From Candidatus Zixiibacteriota bacterium (GTDB taxonomy: Bacteria; Zixibacteria; MSB-5A5; GN15; FEB-12), in NCBI GenBank assembly GCA_034439475.1, contig JAWXAN010000054.1, positions 1 through 33,369 of the forward strand: a stretch of 33,369 nucleotides of DNA, in the 5' to 3' direction. Positions within the stretch are counted from its first letter, which is position 1. Every line of letters starts with the position of its first letter. Positions 8,380-25,033 of the stretch are shown one piece after another. The position numbers were made by a program, and so were the translations under genes. Below the pieces are notes generated by a model, which saw only the letters and a list, made by a program, of their open reading frames with translations, made no database searches and was not told the origin of the DNA.

Positions 8380-10968
8380 TTACTTCAACAAGACCGCTTT
8401 CTTGACTTCGCTGAACGTACCGGCGTTTACCTTATAGAAGTAAATACCTGAGGCAACGTTCGAAGCATCCCATTCAATGATCTTGTAACCAGCGTCGGCA
8501 TGGCCTTCGAATGTCTGAACAACCTGACCTTGGACGTTATAAATCGTCAAGGTATAGTCGCTTGCATTCGGCAGAGCCAAGCTAATGTTGGTTTTGGGGT
8601 TGAACGGATTAGGATAGTTCTGGGACAGAGCAAAGGCTGTCGGAACTACGACCTTGTTGACAGTAATCGAATTGCCATAAATGTCGGCCATCTCGATTGA
8701 GGTAACAGAACCAGCAACTTCGATGAATGCGCCGGTAAAGCCGGTCACCTTCTCGATTGCGGTTTCGTTGCCTTCAAGTCCAATCATCGGCACAATGATA
8801 ATACGAGTGTTCGTACCATCGAATAGATATTCCATGCCCATGTTTTCGGCGAGAAGTTTCGGAACGACATTTCCAGCAACAGTCATAGCAACACCACCAA
8901 GGTTGACGCCGTTCACTGACCAGACATCTCCGGTCTGATTGGCGTTAACAGAGATGAGGTCCAGCTTAGGATTTTGAGCTGCGTCTCCTACAACAATACG
9001 GATAGCCAACACTAAGTCAGCAACCGTTAATGCCGTACCGTCAGCATTGACATCGGAGGCGGCAATAGAACCATTGACATGTGTAGTGAAAGCACTGAGT
9101 CCCTGGGTGAAATAATTAGTGAACATAACGACGTCGGCGATTTCAATATAAATGCCGTTGAGGTTGATGTCACCACGAGCGTCGATCGAGTCGGCGCAGA
9201 TGATGGCAATACCGCCGCTGTAGAAATCGACACAACGGACGGGTTGACCCTTGGCTGTGTAGACATCGCATAACGGAGCGACAGCGCCATATGCGCTCGG
9301 GAGAGTACCGTCACTCAGTGTATCTATCTGGTAGTAGGAGCCTACACCATTGCTGGCGTAGACACGGCTGGAGATAATAAGCGAGTCTCCGCTTATTGTC
9401 GAAAGCGCGTTGTCGCCGCAATCATACCAGAAGAAGTCGATAGGAACCCACTGACATTCGAATGTACGATTGTTCGAGACAAAGAATGTCAGGATTGCCA
9501 ACTGGTTGGAGATCAAGGCGCTGCCATTAACAAAGCAATCCGGGTGGTTAGCGCCGCCGTTGTTGGTCTCGGCGATAGCCACTATACGGAGGAAGCCTTG
9601 CGGACAGCCACTGTTACCGCAGTTGCCATTCGGGCCAAAGCGATAGGTGAAATATTCCCATCCGCAATCCAGAATAAATTGACCTGGCTCAGCCTTTTGG
9701 AAGGAGAGAGCCGAAGCATCATACCGGATCAGGAAGTCAAAACCGCCCATTGGGGTGTTAAACGACGGGAAGGGATTCATTGAGACATCGACAGTCGTGA
9801 ATTCACCCTGGCCCTGGTTCGCTACTCCTTCAATGGTAATATCATTGTTAAGTACGTTGACCGTAAAGCAGCAAGTGTCAGCGTTGCTTGGACTGCAAGG
9901 AGAGCAGACTTTGGCGCTGTCAGTAACTGCAACACAGATTGAGAACGAGCCTGAGTTAGGTCCTGGATCCCAGGTAACTTGACCAGTGGCCGGGTCGACA
10001 AGAACAACGCCGGGAGCAGTGGTCGAGGCCAGGGAATAGATGAGCGGACGAGGACCTAAGTCGGAATCCGCGCCGGTTACCGAAACATTGAGCTGCTCGC
10101 CACCGCAAAGGAGGACGGGAGCAACACAAGTTATTGTCGGTGCAACGTTGGTAACACAGATAGCGAAAGTATCGAGATCTGTGGCACCGCATGAATCGGT
10201 TACCTTTACAACAACCGTATTCACGCAAACATCGTTTCCGGTGGTTAACCAGGAGATAGCGCCTGAAGTGGCGTTAACATTCAAAGCAAGCGGGCCGCTC
10301 TGTTTGGCATAGGTCAGCTTCTCACAGTTTGCCTGATCAGCATCCGTGGCAGAAGCCGAGCCTGTGTACAACGTACCCCAGGGGAGCGTGGCATCCGGAA
10401 TGGAAGCCAAGACCGGGGCGGCGTTGACAAGAGTAACCACACCATTGGTTACGGCTACAGGAAGAAGCGAAGAATTGGCAGCATTAACAAACTGGGTGGT
10501 GATAACGCCTACCGGGTTAGGATAAGTGAAAACACCATTGTTCAGGTTGATAATACCAGCGCATACATTCGCAGTTCCAACGTTAATCCTCGCGATGACC
10601 TTCGTACCTGCCAATAAGGCAGCGTCCGTAGATACAGTTCGCATAGCGGCAAATCGGACCGTGTCCGGCGAGACTCCGTTAGCTTGAGTCAAGTCGATTA
10701 CACGATTGTCAAGTTGTGTCAAACCAGCGTCAAAAGTAACCGAAGGTATGCCAGTAAAGTTACCAGTTATCTCGAGGACAACTTCCACAGCGCTGACAGA
10801 ATCCGAGGAAACAACAGCTGTCACATTGATAGCGTTGCTTACTGCGGCTGCGCAGCGTGAGGCGTTCTTTGACTGGACTAGTACCTGGTTAGCAAACGAA
10901 GCTGATGCCGAGAATACCACCATAAAGGAGATCAGCAGCAAAGAATATATCGTTCTTTTTTGCATCAT
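8380..10968 (-). CDS. Secreted multidomain surface protein: cohesin-like, Ig-like, dockerin-like, C-terminal sorting domain
   Basis: An 862-residue exported protein. The signal peptide covers about residues 1-27 (cleavage near ASFANQ). A cohesin-like beta domain (28-180) is followed by two cadherin/He_PIG-type Ig domains (184-274 and 278-372; WLTTGNDVCVNTVVVKVTDS and the matching VTWDPGPNSG repeat). A second cohesin-like domain covers 378-540. A dockerin-like pair follows: GDINLNGIYIEIADVVMF at 599-616 and SDVNADGTALTVADLVLA at 638-655, both with DxNxnG calcium loops. A beta region (667-772) leads to the C-terminal domain (776-862), with FALSQNYPNPFNPKTNISL and a GIYFYKV ending typical of FCB sorting/FlgD-like domains. 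Cysteines are unusually frequent between 205 and 580, suggesting disulfides. The start ATG has GGAG 7 nt upstream, and the gene is monocistronic with a strong terminator. It probably serves in cell-surface scaffolding or adhesion; the partner is unknown. Confidence 0.9.
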   Translation of the reverse strand: MMQKRTIYSLLLISFMVVFSASASFANQVLVQSKNASRCAAAVSNAINVTAVVSSDSVSAVEVVLEITGNFTGIPSVTFDAGLTQLDNRVIDLTQANGVSPDTVRFAAMRTVSTDAALLAGTKVIARINVGTANVCAGIINLNNGVFTYPNPVGVITTQFVNAANSSLLPVAVTNGVVTLVNAAPVLASIPDATLPWGTLYTGSASATDADQANCEKLTYAKQSGPLALNVNATSGAISWLTTGNDVCVNTVVVKVTDSCGATDLDTFAICVTNVAPTITCVAPVLLCGGEQLNVSVTGADSDLGPRPLIYSLASTTAPGVVLVDPATGQVTWDPGPNSGSFSICVAVTDSAKVCSPCSPSNADTCCFTVNVLNNDITIEGVANQGQGEFTTVDVSMNPFPSFNTPMGGFDFLIRYDASALSFQKAEPGQFILDCGWEYFTYRFGPNGNCGNSGCPQGFLRIVAIAETNNGGANHPDCFVNGSALISNQLAILTFFVSNNRTFECQWVPIDFFWYDCGDNALSTISGDSLIISSRVYASNGVGSYYQIDTLSDGTLPSAYGAVAPLCDVYTAKGQPVRCVDFYSGGIAIICADSIDARGDINLNGIYIEIADVVMFTNYFTQGLSAFTTHVNGSIAASDVNADGTALTVADLVLAIRIVVGDAAQNPKLDLISVNANQTGDVWSVNGVNLGGVAMTVAGNVVPKLLAENMGMEYLFDGTNTRIIIVPMIGLEGNETAIEKVTGFTGAFIEVAGSVTSIEMADIYGNSITVNKVVVPTAFALSQNYPNPFNPKTNISLALPNASDYTLTIYNVQGQVVQTFEGHADAGYKIIEWDASNVASGIYFYKVNAGTFSEVKKAVLLK

Positions 10969-20341: not shown

Positions 20342-20804
20342 AAAATTGTATCCCTCAAATCGGACTCAAGGTAGGTATGGCGGGCGTGACAGACAAGCCC
20401 AAATCGGAGGGCAGTGCAAAGAATATGATGATAGGAAAATGAGAAAGTGGCTGGCTTCCCCTATGGGGATACAGTCCCCTGACGTGGTCTCTAACCTAAC
20501 TCGGGTACCCCACCGCTTGCGGTGGGTTTTTCTTCGGTATGCACCGAGCAAATAAGAACCCACCCGTTGGGTGGGCTACAAAGAAGATAAGATCACACCG
20601 TCCGCTCACGCCTGTCCGTTGTAGCGGGAAAGTGGAAACAAGCATCGGTATTCGTGGGGTCCGCCGCAGCGGATGCCCCGCACCAAGTGACCGTCAGGTC
20701 ACCCGCCGTGGGCGGACTTCGGAAGCCTCAGCACTCATGTCTTCGCTTCGCTCTGACATAAGCAAGACCCGACGGAAGAGGGGAACTCGGATACCTAAAT
20801 CCGC
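20342..20804. other. Gene-free repeat-rich region
   Basis: About 460 bp with no supported gene. CCCACCGC/GCGGTGGG (20508-20525) followed by five T looks like a terminator but no plus-strand gene precedes it. A second hairpin, CCCACCCGTTGGGTGGG, follows at about 20557-20574. Then come the 15-mer shared with 8046 (20589-20603), the near-palindrome GTGACCGTCAGGTCAC (20687-20702) and GCAAGACCCGACGG (20762-20775). These last two are the inverted match to 8238-8285. The structure is a cluster of dispersed palindromic repeats. Confidence 0.55.
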
Positions 20805-21431
20805 TTACGTTATAAATGACCCTATCCAGTCTGTCCAGAGGAAGTAAACCCGGCCAATAAGCAGGGAAATACGGGCCATCACGGTATAGCCGAAATGGGC
20901 TCCGAATGAAATCATGATAAACCAGATACCCAGTTTGGCCGTCGCACCAAGCGCGCCGACATGCTCTTTTGAAAAGTAAAAATATATGAGCGTGGAAATC
21001 AGTCCGATAATGATAAGAATGGTCAACACATAGTTTGGCTCTCCACCTGTCTGCTGGATTTGCATAGTGCCAGCCATTTGCCCAAGCACGTTGCCATGCA
21101 GTTCAGACATCAGAAAAACTCCCGCGGTAGTCCCCATAACAAAGGCCAGACCAATCCGCGCAAGCCATGAAAATCTGGGATAGAGCCGGGCGAACATGAG
21201 CAGACCGAGAATGCCGGGGAAAATAAGCAACCAATTCGAATTGAAATCCTGTGTTAACGGTTGCCAAAGTTGCTGTTTAACTACGGTATCGAGATAGAGC
21301 GCGACATAGTAGCCGGCGGTTATTCCGGCGAAAATATGCTCGGCAAATTTGAAAACCGGATTGTCCGCATAGAGAAATGAAAATATGGCCAGCGTGAAAA
21401 AGGCCATGACCCATATCTGGAAAATTTCCAT
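20805..21431 (-). CDS. Polytopic membrane protein, gene 4 of an uncharacterised operon
   Basis: 208 aa with about six membrane segments: WVMAFFTLAIFSFLYA (near 8-23), FAEHIFAGITAGYYVALYL (about 29-48), LLIFPGILGLLMFARLY (about 68-85), ARIGLAFVMGTTAGVFL (about 90-107), YVLTILIIIGLISTLIYFYF (about 133-153) and KLGIWFIMISFGAHFGYTVM (about 165-185). No catalytic motif is visible. A strong ribosome site (GGAGGGG, 7 nt) serves the ATG, which follows the preceding stop by 2 nt. It is last in the operon 23853-20805 and is likely one of two purely membrane subunits of a complex with genes 1-3. Family not recognised. Confidence 0.85.
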   Translation of the reverse strand: MEIFQIWVMAFFTLAIFSFLYADNPVFKFAEHIFAGITAGYYVALYLDTVVKQQLWQPLTQDFNSNWLLIFPGILGLLMFARLYPRFSWLARIGLAFVMGTTAGVFLMSELHGNVLGQMAGTMQIQQTGGEPNYVLTILIIIGLISTLIYFYFSKEHVGALGATAKLGIWFIMISFGAHFGYTVMARISLLIGRVYFLWTDWIGSFIT

Positions 21432-21433
21432 TG

Positions 21434-22276
21434 TTACGCCCCTCCGCCTTTTTTAGCCTGAGAGCGGCGGTTCATAAAGAAGCCGAGATTACCAACAACG
21501 ATAAGGCCTATCAGAAGAAAATGAACAAGTGACTGTATTCCCATTCCAGTCACTGCCAAAGCAGGTTTTCCAACTAACTGCTCGTATTCCGCCGCCCCTT
21601 TCATGCCTCCAAGCATGCCGGTAAGCTGGCCCGAGCCAATATAGGCATATTGTTTGGGGGCCATGACCGACGTCACTCCCGCGCCGACCGGTTTGCCAAA
21701 TTGGGCGTTGACGATGGATATCCAGAAATCAATGATACCGTTATCGGTCACCACAAAAATAAAGGCGATGTCCGCATAATTTTTCACTGTTGTCATAAGC
21801 GGCAACCGCCCAAGAGGTGTGCCGGAATTATCAGCCGGATAAATCGATTCAATCGAGCTTCCCATCCCCTTGAGCACCGAAACATAGTTCGGCTTGTATC
21901 CCAAATTGACAAAATCAGTCCCATAGACTTTGCCGTATTCCGCCGCTAATTCTCGTGTCACTCGCTCGGCGACCGATGGTCCGCCCAGAGGAATAGTGGT
22001 TACAGTAACAACTTTATGATTGTTCCTAAAGAGATGATGCAGTGCGGCGCGGGTCATGGGTTCTGTCTCGGCCAGGGCATTGGGATAGAGATCGAAAGTA
22101 AGCATGACAACCGAGGAATCAGGCAGAGCTTCGACTGCATCATAGAGCGCTTTGACTTCGGGCGTCGTGCTTATTTCAAACGTTGCAGGAACAATGAGCG
22201 GGAAAATTACGGCTATCCAGACAAGAATGAAAATCCACTGCCTATGCAGTCCAGCCAGTCTCTGCCAGATATTCAT
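21434..22276 (-). CDS. Membrane-anchored alpha/beta domain protein, gene 3 of the operon
   Basis: 280 aa. One membrane segment near the N-terminus (WIFILVWIAVIFPLIVPATF, about 14-33) and one near the C-terminus (VHFLLIGLIVVGNLGFFM, about 251-269) enclose a globular alpha/beta domain of about 215 residues. Visible pieces of that domain are SSVVMLTFDLYPNALAETEP, HKVVTVTTIPLGGPSVAERV, GTDFVNLGYKPNYVSVL, a glycine-rich PADNSGTPLGRLP and AFIFVVTDNGIIDFWI. The alternating strands and helices resemble a Rossmann-like fold, but no nucleotide-binding motif is clear. By its two membrane segments the domain should face the extracytoplasmic side (inference). The start follows the previous stop by 3 nt. 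I do not recognise the family. Confidence 0.85.
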   Translation of the reverse strand: MNIWQRLAGLHRQWIFILVWIAVIFPLIVPATFEISTTPEVKALYDAVEALPDSSVVMLTFDLYPNALAETEPMTRAALHHLFRNNHKVVTVTTIPLGGPSVAERVTRELAAEYGKVYGTDFVNLGYKPNYVSVLKGMGSSIESIYPADNSGTPLGRLPLMTTVKNYADIAFIFVVTDNGIIDFWISIVNAQFGKPVGAGVTSVMAPKQYAYIGSGQLTGMLGGMKGAAEYEQLVGKPALAVTGMGIQSLVHFLLIGLIVVGNLGFFMNRRSQAKKGGGA

Positions 22277-22279
22277 CAG

Positions 22280-22957
22280 CTATGACCTGCCCATATAGGT
22301 GCGTTCAATGCCAAGCAGAATGCGAAGAGACATAGTCGCCGCTCCGAGCGCCGCGCCGATTATAATTCCGCGCTGGACAGAAAGGCTAATACCGCCCATG
22401 ATATAGGTGTTGATAACGCCAGGCAGGTCAGGTGAAATAAACAAAAGAAAAGCTTCGCCCATCGGCACCCGCCAGAGCATAACCATAGAGGCGGTGAGCA
22501 GCAAAAGTGTGGCTTCGGTACTCCGCGCGCGAAACGCCCGGTAGGCCGCCGATGCAATGTAAAAGGCCAGAATCGCAAACATCGTCTGGCTCATCGGAGT
22601 CGCTGTGTAGAGAAAGAGCCAGTCGTAAATCGAACCGGCATTCCTTCCTGCAAGGCGTTCCCAACCAGATGGCAGCCAAGCGGCCGGCCAAAGCGCCGGG
22701 ACGGCCATAACAAAAACCGCAAGAACGGTAAGGAGATTATAGCCCCAGCCCGGTTTACGCATGGAAACCTGTTTCCAATTTACACGAGTGATTGAAATTG
22801 CGCCAAGGAGGAATGTAAACCCGCCGATAATAGAACTCCAGATCAGGAGATCCTGTGAAATAGTGCCGACAGTCTTCTGTTCTGGATTTATGAAGAAGGC
22901 GATGACCATAATCAGGCCGGAAATAAAGGCGATTGCAAGCGGGAGGAGAGTTCTCAT
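22280..22957 (-). CDS. Polytopic membrane protein, gene 2 of the operon
   Basis: 225 aa with about six membrane segments (near 5-22, 37-55, 73-95, 120-140, 147-165 and 190-212). It ends in a short polar tail, LRILLGIERTYMGRS, which may be a conserved cap. PALWPAAWLPSGWERLAG is a notable Trp/Pro-rich loop between segments 3 and 4. Its ATG overlaps the stop of gene 1 (ATGA), indicating translational coupling. No transport or enzyme family is recognised. With gene 4 it probably forms the membrane core around the two anchored globular proteins. Confidence 0.85.
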   Translation of the reverse strand: MRTLLPLAIAFISGLIMVIAFFINPEQKTVGTISQDLLIWSSIIGGFTFLLGAISITRVNWKQVSMRKPGWGYNLLTVLAVFVMAVPALWPAAWLPSGWERLAGRNAGSIYDWLFLYTATPMSQTMFAILAFYIASAAYRAFRARSTEATLLLLTASMVMLWRVPMGEAFLLFISPDLPGVINTYIMGGISLSVQRGIIIGAALGAATMSLRILLGIERTYMGRS

Positions 22958-23853
22958 TTTGGAATGAATAACTCCACATATCTGGTGCCATTGCCGGTCA
23001 GGATAAGAACCATCCCGACAACGAGCGCCACGATTATGATAACTTTGATCAGGTCCTGCCCTTTGAGACCACCAAGCAACAGCGGTTCATGTGAAAGGTA
23101 AGCCGAAGCCGCATAGAGCTCTTCGCCCATGAGCGTGTAATCACAGGCGGCTATAAAAAATGGAATTTGTTCGGGACGCGCCGTCCCGGCTATCTGAATC
23201 GATCCTGCGGCATTGCCGGTCTCGGCAAGCAACAGCGATTCGGCGAAAAAAGCTCCCATGAAAATATTAGCCGCTGGACGCTCGCGCATCATGAGGCCAT
23301 TGACGCTTGCCGCGAAAGCCATCTGCTCTCCGGCCACATACCGCACACAATCTTTATTGTATGAGTCTCTCTTGCCAGCTTGAATGTAGGCCTGTTCGAC
23401 CGCTTCCTGTCCGGCGGCAAGAACCAATGGATAGCGCACCGGGACCATGAGCGGGGTGTCATACTGGGCAGTTATTTTTGCCACGCGACCAAGTATCGAT
23501 ATACCGGCGATCGTTTCCATCTCGTCCAGTTCCTGAAGCCCAGGAATAAAGAGAACCGGTTTGCCCATTTCGGTCGCGCGACCGACAGCTTCTTCGAGGG
23601 CGTCGAGTCCCGCTATCTTACGGATGAAGAGCGGCTTGCCTTTTTTCGCCAGTTTGGTGTAGGTCAAAATAACTCCGGCAAAGATGAGGCTGAAAATCAA
23701 AACATTGGTTCTGTCTGCGCGAAAGAGCTTCTGCGACACTTCAGCAACGGCCGGAGTTTCTTCCTGGGCGCCGGTAGGGCAAGCCGAAAAAAGTATGAAA
23801 GCAAAAGTGAGAACAAAAAAAACTGATTGAGATATACGTTTTATGTGTGGCAC
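22954..23853 (-). CDS. Membrane protein with a DUF6754-like domain, gene 1 of the operon
   Basis: 299 aa. An N-terminal export signal (about 1-29, ending CPTGAQ) or anchor is followed by a second membrane segment (NVLIFSLIFAGVILTYTKLA, about 50-69) and a globular domain (about 75-265). A C-terminal segment follows (IKVIIIVALVVGMVLIL). Recognisable pieces are ALEEAVGRATEMGKPVLFIPG, LDEMETIAGISILGRVA, YDTPLMVPVRYPLVLAAGQE, NIFMGAFFAESLLLAETGN, GSIQIAGTARPEQIPFFIAA and YTLMGEELYAASAYLS. I recall this pattern as the domain called DUF6754, from uncultivated and Chloroflexota-like genomes, without known function; this is from memory and unverified. The GTG start lies 5 nt after a good -10 box and has no useful ribosome site, so the message looks leaderless. 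Confidence 0.85.
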   Translation of the reverse strand: MPHIKRISQSVFFVLTFAFILFSACPTGAQEETPAVAEVSQKLFRADRTNVLIFSLIFAGVILTYTKLAKKGKPLFIRKIAGLDALEEAVGRATEMGKPVLFIPGLQELDEMETIAGISILGRVAKITAQYDTPLMVPVRYPLVLAAGQEAVEQAYIQAGKRDSYNKDCVRYVAGEQMAFAASVNGLMMRERPAANIFMGAFFAESLLLAETGNAAGSIQIAGTARPEQIPFFIAACDYTLMGEELYAASAYLSHEPLLLGGLKGQDLIKVIIIVALVVGMVLILTGNGTRYVELFIPK

Positions 23854-23858
23854 AGCCT

Positions 23859-23886
23859 AATATACCTGTCGAATCACTGTTGTCAA
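23859..23886 (-). promoter_or_regulatory. Sigma-70-type promoter of the four-gene membrane operon
   Basis: On the minus strand, TTGACA (23886-23881, consensus) is followed by a 16-bp spacer and TATATT (23864-23859). The GTG start of the first gene begins 5 nt after the -10 box, so the predicted transcription start is at the start codon. Confidence 0.75.
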
Positions 23887-23971: not shown

Positions 23972-24631
23972 TTAATTCTTGTTTGGCTGATTGGATAGCT
24001 TTTGGGAGCGGAGTTTGATGACTTCAATTAAAGCCGGAAGAACAGAAATAACGATAATCGCGATTATGACCAGCCCGAAATTATCCTTCACTATCGGCAG
24101 GTTGCCAAAGAAGTATCCGGTCAAGGTGCAAAGTAACACCCAGAGAATGGCCCCGATAACATTGTAACTGAAGAAACGAAAATAACCCATATTGCCAACT
24201 CCGGCCAGAAACGGCGCAAATGTCCTGATAATCGGCACAAAACGGGCAATGACAATTGTCTTGCCGCCGTACTTTTCATAGAATTGATGGGTTTTATCGA
24301 GATATCTCCGTTTGAAAAAACGACTTGGCTTGTCAAAGACCGATGTCCCGATCTTTTTGCCGATAGCGTAGTTGAGCGCATCTCCCAAAATTGCCGCGAT
24401 AATAAGCAGACTGAGCAGCCATCCGATTTCAAGTGAGCCCGAGGCGGCGAATGTCCCTGCGACAAAAAGAAGTGAATCGCCGGGAAGAAACGGGGCTACA
24501 ACAAGACCGGTTTCGGCGAAAATTATCAGGAAGAGAATGGCGTAGGTCCAAGTCCCATACTCGAGTATAATTTTATGGAGATGGTCGTCGAGGTGGAGAA
24601 AGAGGTCAATTATTGATATTAAGAATTCCAC
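23972..24631 (-). CDS. DedA-family (VTT domain) inner-membrane protein
   Basis: 219 aa, normal length for the family. The domain shows [20 protein letters not shown], then the signature [19 protein letters not shown], where the conserved acidic residue and PGD lie in a re-entrant loop. [13 protein letters not shown] and then [25 protein letters not shown] follow, with the conserved RFxPxxRxF arginines. C-terminal membrane helices end in a basic tail. DedA proteins are proton-linked transporters or scramblases, involved in lipid-carrier recycling in some species, in membrane homeostasis and in drug resistance; the cargo here is unknown. Start is GTG at 24631, with no clear ribosome site. A good promoter lies about 20 nt upstream. 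It is monocistronic as far as visible. Confidence 0.95.
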
Positions 24632-24742: not shown

Positions 24743-25033
24743 TCATTCAGACAAGACCATCATATAAGTCACGCCACTCTGGATTGTCTCTTTCAATAGT
24801 TTCAATTTTCCATGCCCGTTTCCAGCCTTTATCTGCTTTTCTCTTTGTATGGCAGAGGTGACATCTTCGGTCTGCTCATAAAAGACCACGACATGAACTC
24901 CATATCGTTTGGTAAAGCTATTAATTAGATCATGCTTGTGTTCATAAACTCGTTTGATAAGATTGTTGGTCATGCCGACGTATAATGTGCCGTCTCTTTG
25001 ACTGGCGAGGATGCACACATAGTAGGCGGACAT
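24743..25033 (-). CDS. GIY-YIG nuclease (URI/UPF0213-like), frameshifted near its C-terminus
   Basis: A single GIY-YIG domain of about 96 aa. It opens YYVCILASQRDGTLYVGMTNNLIKRVYEHK, with the GIY-like YYV and YIG-like YVG strands and the following Arg/His residues, and continues to TSAIQREKQIK. From there the annotated frame becomes unlike the family, ending SGVTYMMVLSE. The -1 frame starting at about 24826-24832 (ATAAAGGC) gives GWKRAWKIETIERDNPEWRD LYDGLV, which is the normal family ending, and stops at 24747. A single-base deletion in an A run, a sequencing error or a programmed frameshift explains this; an indel is most likely. No ribosome site; a -10 box ends about 8 nt upstream of the ATG. 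The gene lies exactly between two 37-bp inverted repeats. Confidence 0.85.
   Translation of the reverse strand: MSAYYVCILASQRDGTLYVGMTNNLIKRVYEHKHDLINSFTKRYGVHVVVFYEQTEDVTSAIQREKQIKAGNGHGKLKLLKETIQSGVTYMMVLSE

Follow-up and report, generated by a model that had tools for sequence, protein, structure and literature searches.

The window analysed here, the whole 33,369-nucleotide stretch of contig JAWXAN010000054.1 (Candidatus Zixiibacteriota bacterium, assembly GCA_034439475.1), carries a conserved cassette of four membrane protein genes on its reverse strand, which we call A, C, B and D in their order along that strand and the first of which encodes a DUF6754 protein (Table 1). A and C overlap by 4 nt (ATGA), C and B are separated by 3 nt, and B and D by 2 nt; the coordinates of the open reading frames (ORFs) agree exactly with the head-to-tail arrangement that an initial annotation of this DNA had described. 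The DUF6754 label given by that annotation proved correct, as A matched PF20539 with 386.7 bits (gathering cut-off 27) over profile positions 3-249 of 257 and is a full member of the family. B, C and D matched no family at cut-off in Pfam, NCBIfam, PADLOC or a PDB sequence search, and the cassette proteins have no solved relative by sequence. The four do not, therefore, each belong to a known transporter family, and the proposal of an undescribed system stands. The Pfam entry for DUF6754 gives no function and does not include the cassette, the partners M and N described below or the extra domains. A search of a literature library found no paper mentioning DUF6754, and nothing tying GlmL/MutL or a type IX secretion system (T9SS) outside Bacteroidota to it. 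Two candidate matches, of C to DUF3902 (0.012) and of a C paralogue to NapE, were rejected, both being membrane-helix matches under the cut-off.

The initial annotation had also placed the genes under one strong promoter. A sigma-70-like site upstream of A does match the consensus at 11 of 12 positions; however, the scanned stretch contained 12 such sites compared with 4.9 expected, and this one lies just 5 nt from the GTG start, so that its role as the sole operon promoter is plausible only. A transcript from it would be leaderless or nearly so. No known RNA elements were found near the operon. Directly upstream of A, 118 nt away and on the same strand, is a DedA-family gene (PRK10847, 293.8 bits), which also matched UptA models, though less strongly and not at their cut-offs. 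The window also holds a gene for a small free-standing GIY-YIG domain protein.

Predicted folds and topology

Single-chain AF2 models were obtained for A and B of the window cassette, with mean pLDDT values of 89.9 and 94.6, respectively, and each showed a six-strand alpha/beta domain between membrane helices. Together with hydropathy profiles over 106 cassettes, these models support the earlier division into two polytopic proteins (C and D) and two proteins with an alpha/beta domain between transmembrane (TM) segments (A and B). The N-terminus of A is signal peptide-like and is followed by a TM helix, the DUF6754 alpha/beta domain and a further TM helix. From the charge bias in the same 106 cassettes, the DUF6754 domain is predicted to be cytoplasmic and the N-terminal part of A to lie outside, the B domain to be periplasmic, and the C N-terminus to be inside. 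An FN3 domain makes up the N-terminal part of most A proteins (matching titin FN3 by profile at 1.4e-20; Pfam fn3 match in 12 of 60 A proteins); the window type, including the window A itself, has no such ectodomain. A single B was found to contain HEAT repeats and a single C to contain FG-GAP repeats, while the ectodomains of two Cloacimonadota A proteins reach some 650 aa or more, and all of these modules, FN3 included, occur on the predicted periplasmic side only. Conserved residues comprise an SxxYRAFRAR loop and an LRxxLGxER C-terminus in C, FLYxDNPxYKxxE and FGYTVMxRxSLLIGR in D, and near-invariant Q248, H252 and N263 in the second membrane helix of B; C237 of A is the only conserved cysteine among the four proteins.

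Foldseek returned no match with E<1e-3 for the A or B models. In a second structural comparison, the top-ranked neighbour was Sir2 for A (Z 11.9, 3.2 Å over 139 residues) and, for B, the CODH/ACS epsilon subunit (Z 9.6, 3.1 Å over 145 residues). A also aligned to CODH/ACS epsilon (Z 9.4), to the same chain (9c0q_C) as B, and transhydrogenase domain III was among the structural neighbours of A (Z range 9-12). These models suggest that a DHS-like Rossmann fold is likely common to A and B. The likeness to CODH/ACS epsilon and Sir2, which have the DHS-like NAD/FAD-binding fold, is one of fold only: identity is 6-14%, and A and B, unlike these proteins, are membrane-anchored. Profile comparison by hhalign detected no homology between A and B, either locally or on domain-trimmed alignments, none was found between C and D, and neither A nor B gave a SIR2 Pfam match. 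A common origin of the A and B domains is unproven, and the fold likeness gives no function.

Copies and inheritance of the cassette

The genome that contains the window (2.66 Mb, 98.7% complete) has five complete A-C-B-D cassettes, three of them in tandem. Identity between the window proteins and their paralogues in this genome is 42-49% for A, 33-37% for B, 35-38% for C and 41-46% for D. The fifth cassette has a very long branch, and its A has neither signal peptide nor FN3; it may represent a distinct, fast-evolving type. DUF6754 was found in all 132 Zixibacteria genomes searched, mostly in 4-6 copies, and in about a dozen other candidate phyla, but in none of 14 control genomes; nearly all genomes compared are metagenome-assembled genomes (MAGs).

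A scan of named genomes through A gave 80 independent contigs, on which cassettes were mapped by ORFs and hidden Markov models. The contigs came from Zixibacteria, WOR-3/Stahlbacteria, Cloacimonadota, Latescibacterota, Fermentibacteria/Aegiribacteria, Coatesbacteria, Edwardsbacteria, Effluviviaceae, Neomarinimicrobiota, Eisenbacteria and a Caldithrix-labelled MAG, with a few labelled Gemmatimonadetes or Planctomycetota. All four genes were present in the same order on 74 contigs, and the other six end inside the cassette; every database locus with enough sequence (74/74) therefore holds the whole set, which bears out the regular co-occurrence that the initial annotation had called for. With loci from Zixibacteria itself included, 106 complete cassettes were found in 78 loci, with median gaps of 12, 1 and -1 nt and 95-96% of gaps at or below 150 nt. 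Because the A-C-B-D order recurs with such tight gaps, the packing is far beyond chance. The annotation's picture of an obligate four-gene set held for these loci, but not in full: extra lone A genes occur, and M and N quite likely belong as well. One WOR-3 genome has two A genes before a single C-B-D, and a Calditrichota genome has a lone FN3-less A 4 kb from its cassette. An 802-aa A in genome G023 was discounted as an assembly artefact in which A and a peptidase are linked by a stretch of N. Phage or plasmid origin was rejected, no relative being found in viral contigs or plasmids, as was an anti-phage defence system, for which PADLOC gave only a 15.8-bit match of C helices to a 2TM effector model.

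Trees were built for all four genes. That of A (105 rows) groups the Zixibacteria window-type cassettes in a single clade (22 rows, support 100) and places array positions 1, 2 and 3 in further clades, that of position 2 including a few other second-position rows. The C, B and D trees recover the same four paralogue clades. When genes were exchanged between cassettes of the same locus in 200 trials, the distance correlation fell from 0.905 to at most 0.795 for A-C, from 0.757 to at most 0.638 for A-B, and from 0.813 to at most 0.708 for A-D. The congruent trees and this drop on swapping show that the cassettes are inherited as units, mixing little if at all, and the tandem positions and the window type are separate ancient clades.

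The surroundings of the window type bear on one alternative, namely that the cassette encodes a complex that transports or assembles lipids or lipid-linked glycans. Window-type cassettes recurrently adjoin a DedA-family gene, a nucleotidyltransferase and a PGI/PMI-like isomerase in Zixibacteria. However, this neighbourhood belongs to one cassette type in one phylum, other cassettes and phyla being without it, and it also holds MetK, AhcY, PtsI and Obg, as expected of housekeeping synteny. We consider this reading unlikely.

The M and N partners

Two further genes, M and N, lie outside the window and precede the main cassette in many phyla, and M-N-A-C-B-D or M-N-(A-C-B-D)2-3 arrays were found in several. 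M is a full-length match to the MutL/GlmL family (PF13941, 432.2 bits, over the cut-off, profile 1-450 of 450) and retains the ASKHA phosphate motifs DCGSTTTK and DIGGATTD across phyla. N, of about 375 aa, is 45-70% identical to the reference across phyla, with weak barrel-sandwich (Biotin_lipoyl, RnfC_N) and KOW similarity. In Neomarinimicrobiota the two are fused into one protein of 999 aa, and the stop of its gene overlaps the A start. Some Zixibacteria have a further, separate M-N fusion; three such paralogues lie away from any A-C-B-D in the stretches examined (Table 1).

The distribution of N follows that of DUF6754. N was present in 123 of the 132 Zixibacteria genomes (77 of 78 good genomes), mostly as one full-length copy compared with 4-6 copies of A. 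Among 38 other genomes, it was found in 33 of 34 with DUF6754 and in one of four without, the one being cut by a contig end (Fisher p 0.002, uncorrected for shared ancestry and from a small sample). Most members seen of phyla of the Fibrobacterota-Chlorobiota-Bacteroidota (FCB) type have a single M-N pair with at least one A-C-B-D cassette, Zixibacteria having 4-6 diverged ones. The window clade joins, with support 97, second cassettes that stand in tandem with M-N elsewhere (loci L069, L070, L071, L080 and L129). At L129 (genome G010), arranged M-N-A-C-B-D-A-C-B-D, FN3 is missing from the second A, as it is from the window A. Because of this grouping, the window cassette is best read as a relocated, FN3-less member of an M-N array.

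A small protein with the motif ESxKPLSFxGxQ is encoded upstream of M or the M-N fusion, or beside the cassette, at ten loci in several phyla, and is a possible seventh part.

Two alternatives turn on the families of M and N. Membership of M in the MutL/GlmL family (432 bits) is what a cobalamin-enzyme reactivation system, such as GlmL with glutamate mutase, would show; but M falls below the cut-off of the GlmL NCBIfam equivalog (241.7 versus 475 bits) and has an extra C-terminal region, no mutase subunits adjoin it, and it is tied to N and membrane proteins rather than to a B12 mutase. Such a function is very improbable. The resemblance of N to the N-terminal barrels of RnfC and NqrA (of 18 N members, 11 gave weak RnfC_N matches and 4 gave NQRA_N matches, E up to 1), together with the structural neighbours Sir2 and transhydrogenase domain III (A) and CODH/ACS epsilon (A and B), at Z 9-12, would suit a redox- or nucleotide-driven ion translocator of the Rnf, NQR or transhydrogenase kind, in which A and B bind dinucleotides and C and D carry the ion. 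Against this, Pfam and NCBIfam place none of A-D in an Rnf, NQR or transhydrogenase family, and the four have no Fe-S ligands, as C237 of A is their sole conserved cysteine. The best RnfC_N match of the N family is 5e-4, the matches in an M-N fusion (23-24 bits) lie under the cut-offs of 25.6 and 25, and Foldseek gave no match with E<1e-3. A respiratory complex, which we judge an improbable identity, would also be unusual in having 4-6 paralogous cassettes and modules such as FN3, HEAT and FG-GAP.

Table 1. Coordinates of the cassette, its signals, neighbours and relatives (window positions unless a locus is named).
Feature	Location	Strand	Remarks
A (DUF6754 protein)	22954-23853	-	GTG start, 299 aa
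C	22280-22957	-	225 aa; polytopic, about 6 TM, N-in; no family at cut-off
B	21434-22276	-	280 aa; TM, predicted periplasmic Rossmann-like alpha/beta domain, TM; no family at cut-off
D	20805-21431	-	208 aa; polytopic, about 6 TM; no family at cut-off
DUF6754 (PF20539) domain with flanking membrane helices, in A	22993-23733	-	
Sigma-70-like site TTGACA-16-TATATT, 5 nt before GTG of A	23859-23886	-	consensus match only
Terminator-like hairpin downstream of D	20557-20577	-	consensus match only
Three tandem cassettes	L009:6443-17454		same genome, contig C23
Fifth cassette	L010:7077-9896		same genome, contig C31
Stand-alone M-N fusion paralogue	L126:3965-6808	-	about 950 aa; near lipoamide-dehydrogenase-like gene
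Stand-alone M-N fusion paralogue	L127:2267-5068	-	about 950 aa
Stand-alone M-N fusion paralogue	L128:2563-5358	+	about 950 aa
ESxKPLSFxGxQ proteins	L106:6239-6577; L072:6542-6922; L090:6235-6690		no Pfam match where scanned
A-A-C-B-D exception	L135:3466-5755		WOR-3
DedA-family gene	23972-24631	-	
GIY-YIG domain protein	24743-25033	-	
T9SS-type C-terminal sorting domain	8392-8616	-	ends 866-aa frame
DUF4388 region before ExbB-ExbD-TonB	L109:12904-15749		WOR-3

Envelope surroundings and proposed mechanism

In three phyla, M-N or a cassette adjoins Tol or ExbBD-TonB genes. TolQ-TolR-TonB/TolA-like genes follow M-(O)-N in 11 of 20 Zixibacteria loci; in the genome of the window, which has a total of four MotA/ExbB-family genes, TolB and a CpoB-like gene lie further on. 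Downstream of the cassette in WOR-3 and Fermentibacterota come genes for ExbB, ExbD, TonB and a TonB-dependent receptor. At four WOR-3 loci (L109, and also L074, L093 and L095), genes for a DUF4388 protein, two other proteins with no family assigned and two small membrane proteins separate the cassette from ExbB-ExbD-TonB. The parts M-N-A-C-B-D resemble Tol-Pal and ExbBD-TonB in their predicted inner-membrane location, their periplasm-reaching parts and their frequent gene neighbourhood. They differ in that A-D lack ExbB, ExbD and TonB homology (no MotA_ExbB, ExbD or TonB_C Pfam match, the neighbours matching these families) and in that M is an ATPase-family protein rather than a proton-motive channel.

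The same genome encodes 30 proteins with a T9SS-type C-terminal domain (CTD), as well as an SprA-type translocon (568 bits, contig C22), which point to a T9SS-like secretion system in Zixibacteria; published abstracts describe the T9SS as confined to Bacteroidota. One of the 30 domains is encoded in the window (Table 1). We accordingly considered whether the cassette might be part of, or a motor substitute for, the T9SS of FCB phyla other than Bacteroidota. Besides the 30 CTD proteins and SprA, a search for GldM, run with no positive control, gave no match in this genome, and CTD-tailed proteins adjoin cassettes in several phyla. The T9SS shares with the cassette an FCB-type distribution and often the same genomes, SprA being over its cut-off in 30 of 34 genomes with DUF6754 compared with two of four without (Fisher p 0.11, from a small and phylogenetically dependent set). 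However, no component homology links the two, A-D giving no NCBIfam Gld or Por match (GldL/GldM, PorL/PorM), and their presence is separable: SprA occurs without DUF6754 in genomes G155 and G167, and DUF6754 without SprA in G138, G145 and G154. An obligate link as a replacement motor was not supported, as each occurs alone, and any membership in the T9SS has a low probability.

We propose instead that A, C, B and D would form one inner-membrane complex, with C and D as its membrane core, and that the cytoplasmic ATPase-family M and the adaptor-like N would serve it. The DUF6754 domain of A, on the predicted cytoplasmic face, would be the likely docking site for M-N, and the FN3 of A would act in the periplasm, as would the B alpha/beta domain. 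By binding and hydrolysing ATP, M would act through N to drive, or else to gate, a change of conformation spanning the inner membrane, which the periplasmic modules would relay to periplasmic or outer-membrane clients, in the territory of Tol-Pal and ExbBD-TonB. That A-C-B-D is one functional unit is very probable, and M-N quite likely belongs to it. The mechanism as stated, an ATP-dependent change passed from M-N through A-C-B-D to an envelope client, is offered tentatively, as a possibility somewhat short of probable.

Several points weigh against this proposal. The Tol/Ton neighbourhood within any one phylum may be inherited synteny, and N and TolQ are separated by about 0.45-0.55 kb. The use of ATP by M is predicted from its motifs; N occurs without M nearby in several Zixibacteria (L148, L150, L151 and L153); and the link of M-N to the window cassette is one of paralogy and of FN3-less tandem relatives, not of adjacency. 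The presence of conserved domains on either side of the membrane, and the many divergent cassettes with one shared M-N, would also suit a transmembrane sensor with multiple inputs and one output, in which a ligand bound by B and FN3 in the periplasm would be signalled to M-N. Yet the genes that recur beside the cassettes include none for a kinase, cyclase or DNA-binding partner, and the invariant core of the A and B domains is unlike that of diverging ligand sensors, which leaves a sensor decidedly unlikely.

Taken together, several independent lines strongly support the existence and composition of a real conserved system, to which the envelope function proposed here would be assigned. No known kind of system fits M-N-A-C-B-D, although its function, once found, could still place it in one. 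More doubtful than the mechanism itself is a broader view, by which M-N-A-C-B-D might be an ATP-driven trans-inner-membrane machine that is an ancestral feature of much of the FCB superphylum. Its ASKHA ATPase would, from the cytoplasm, power some process in the periplasm or at the outer membrane, either alongside the proton-driven Tol/Ton motors or in their stead. Through the M-N fusions and the co-occurrence, what was an anonymous DUF becomes part of a six-part system, whose predicted ATPase lends itself to expression and assay. Being present in every Zixibacteria genome searched, and heavily duplicated, DUF6754 is likely central to the building or energising of the envelope in these largely uncultured diderms.

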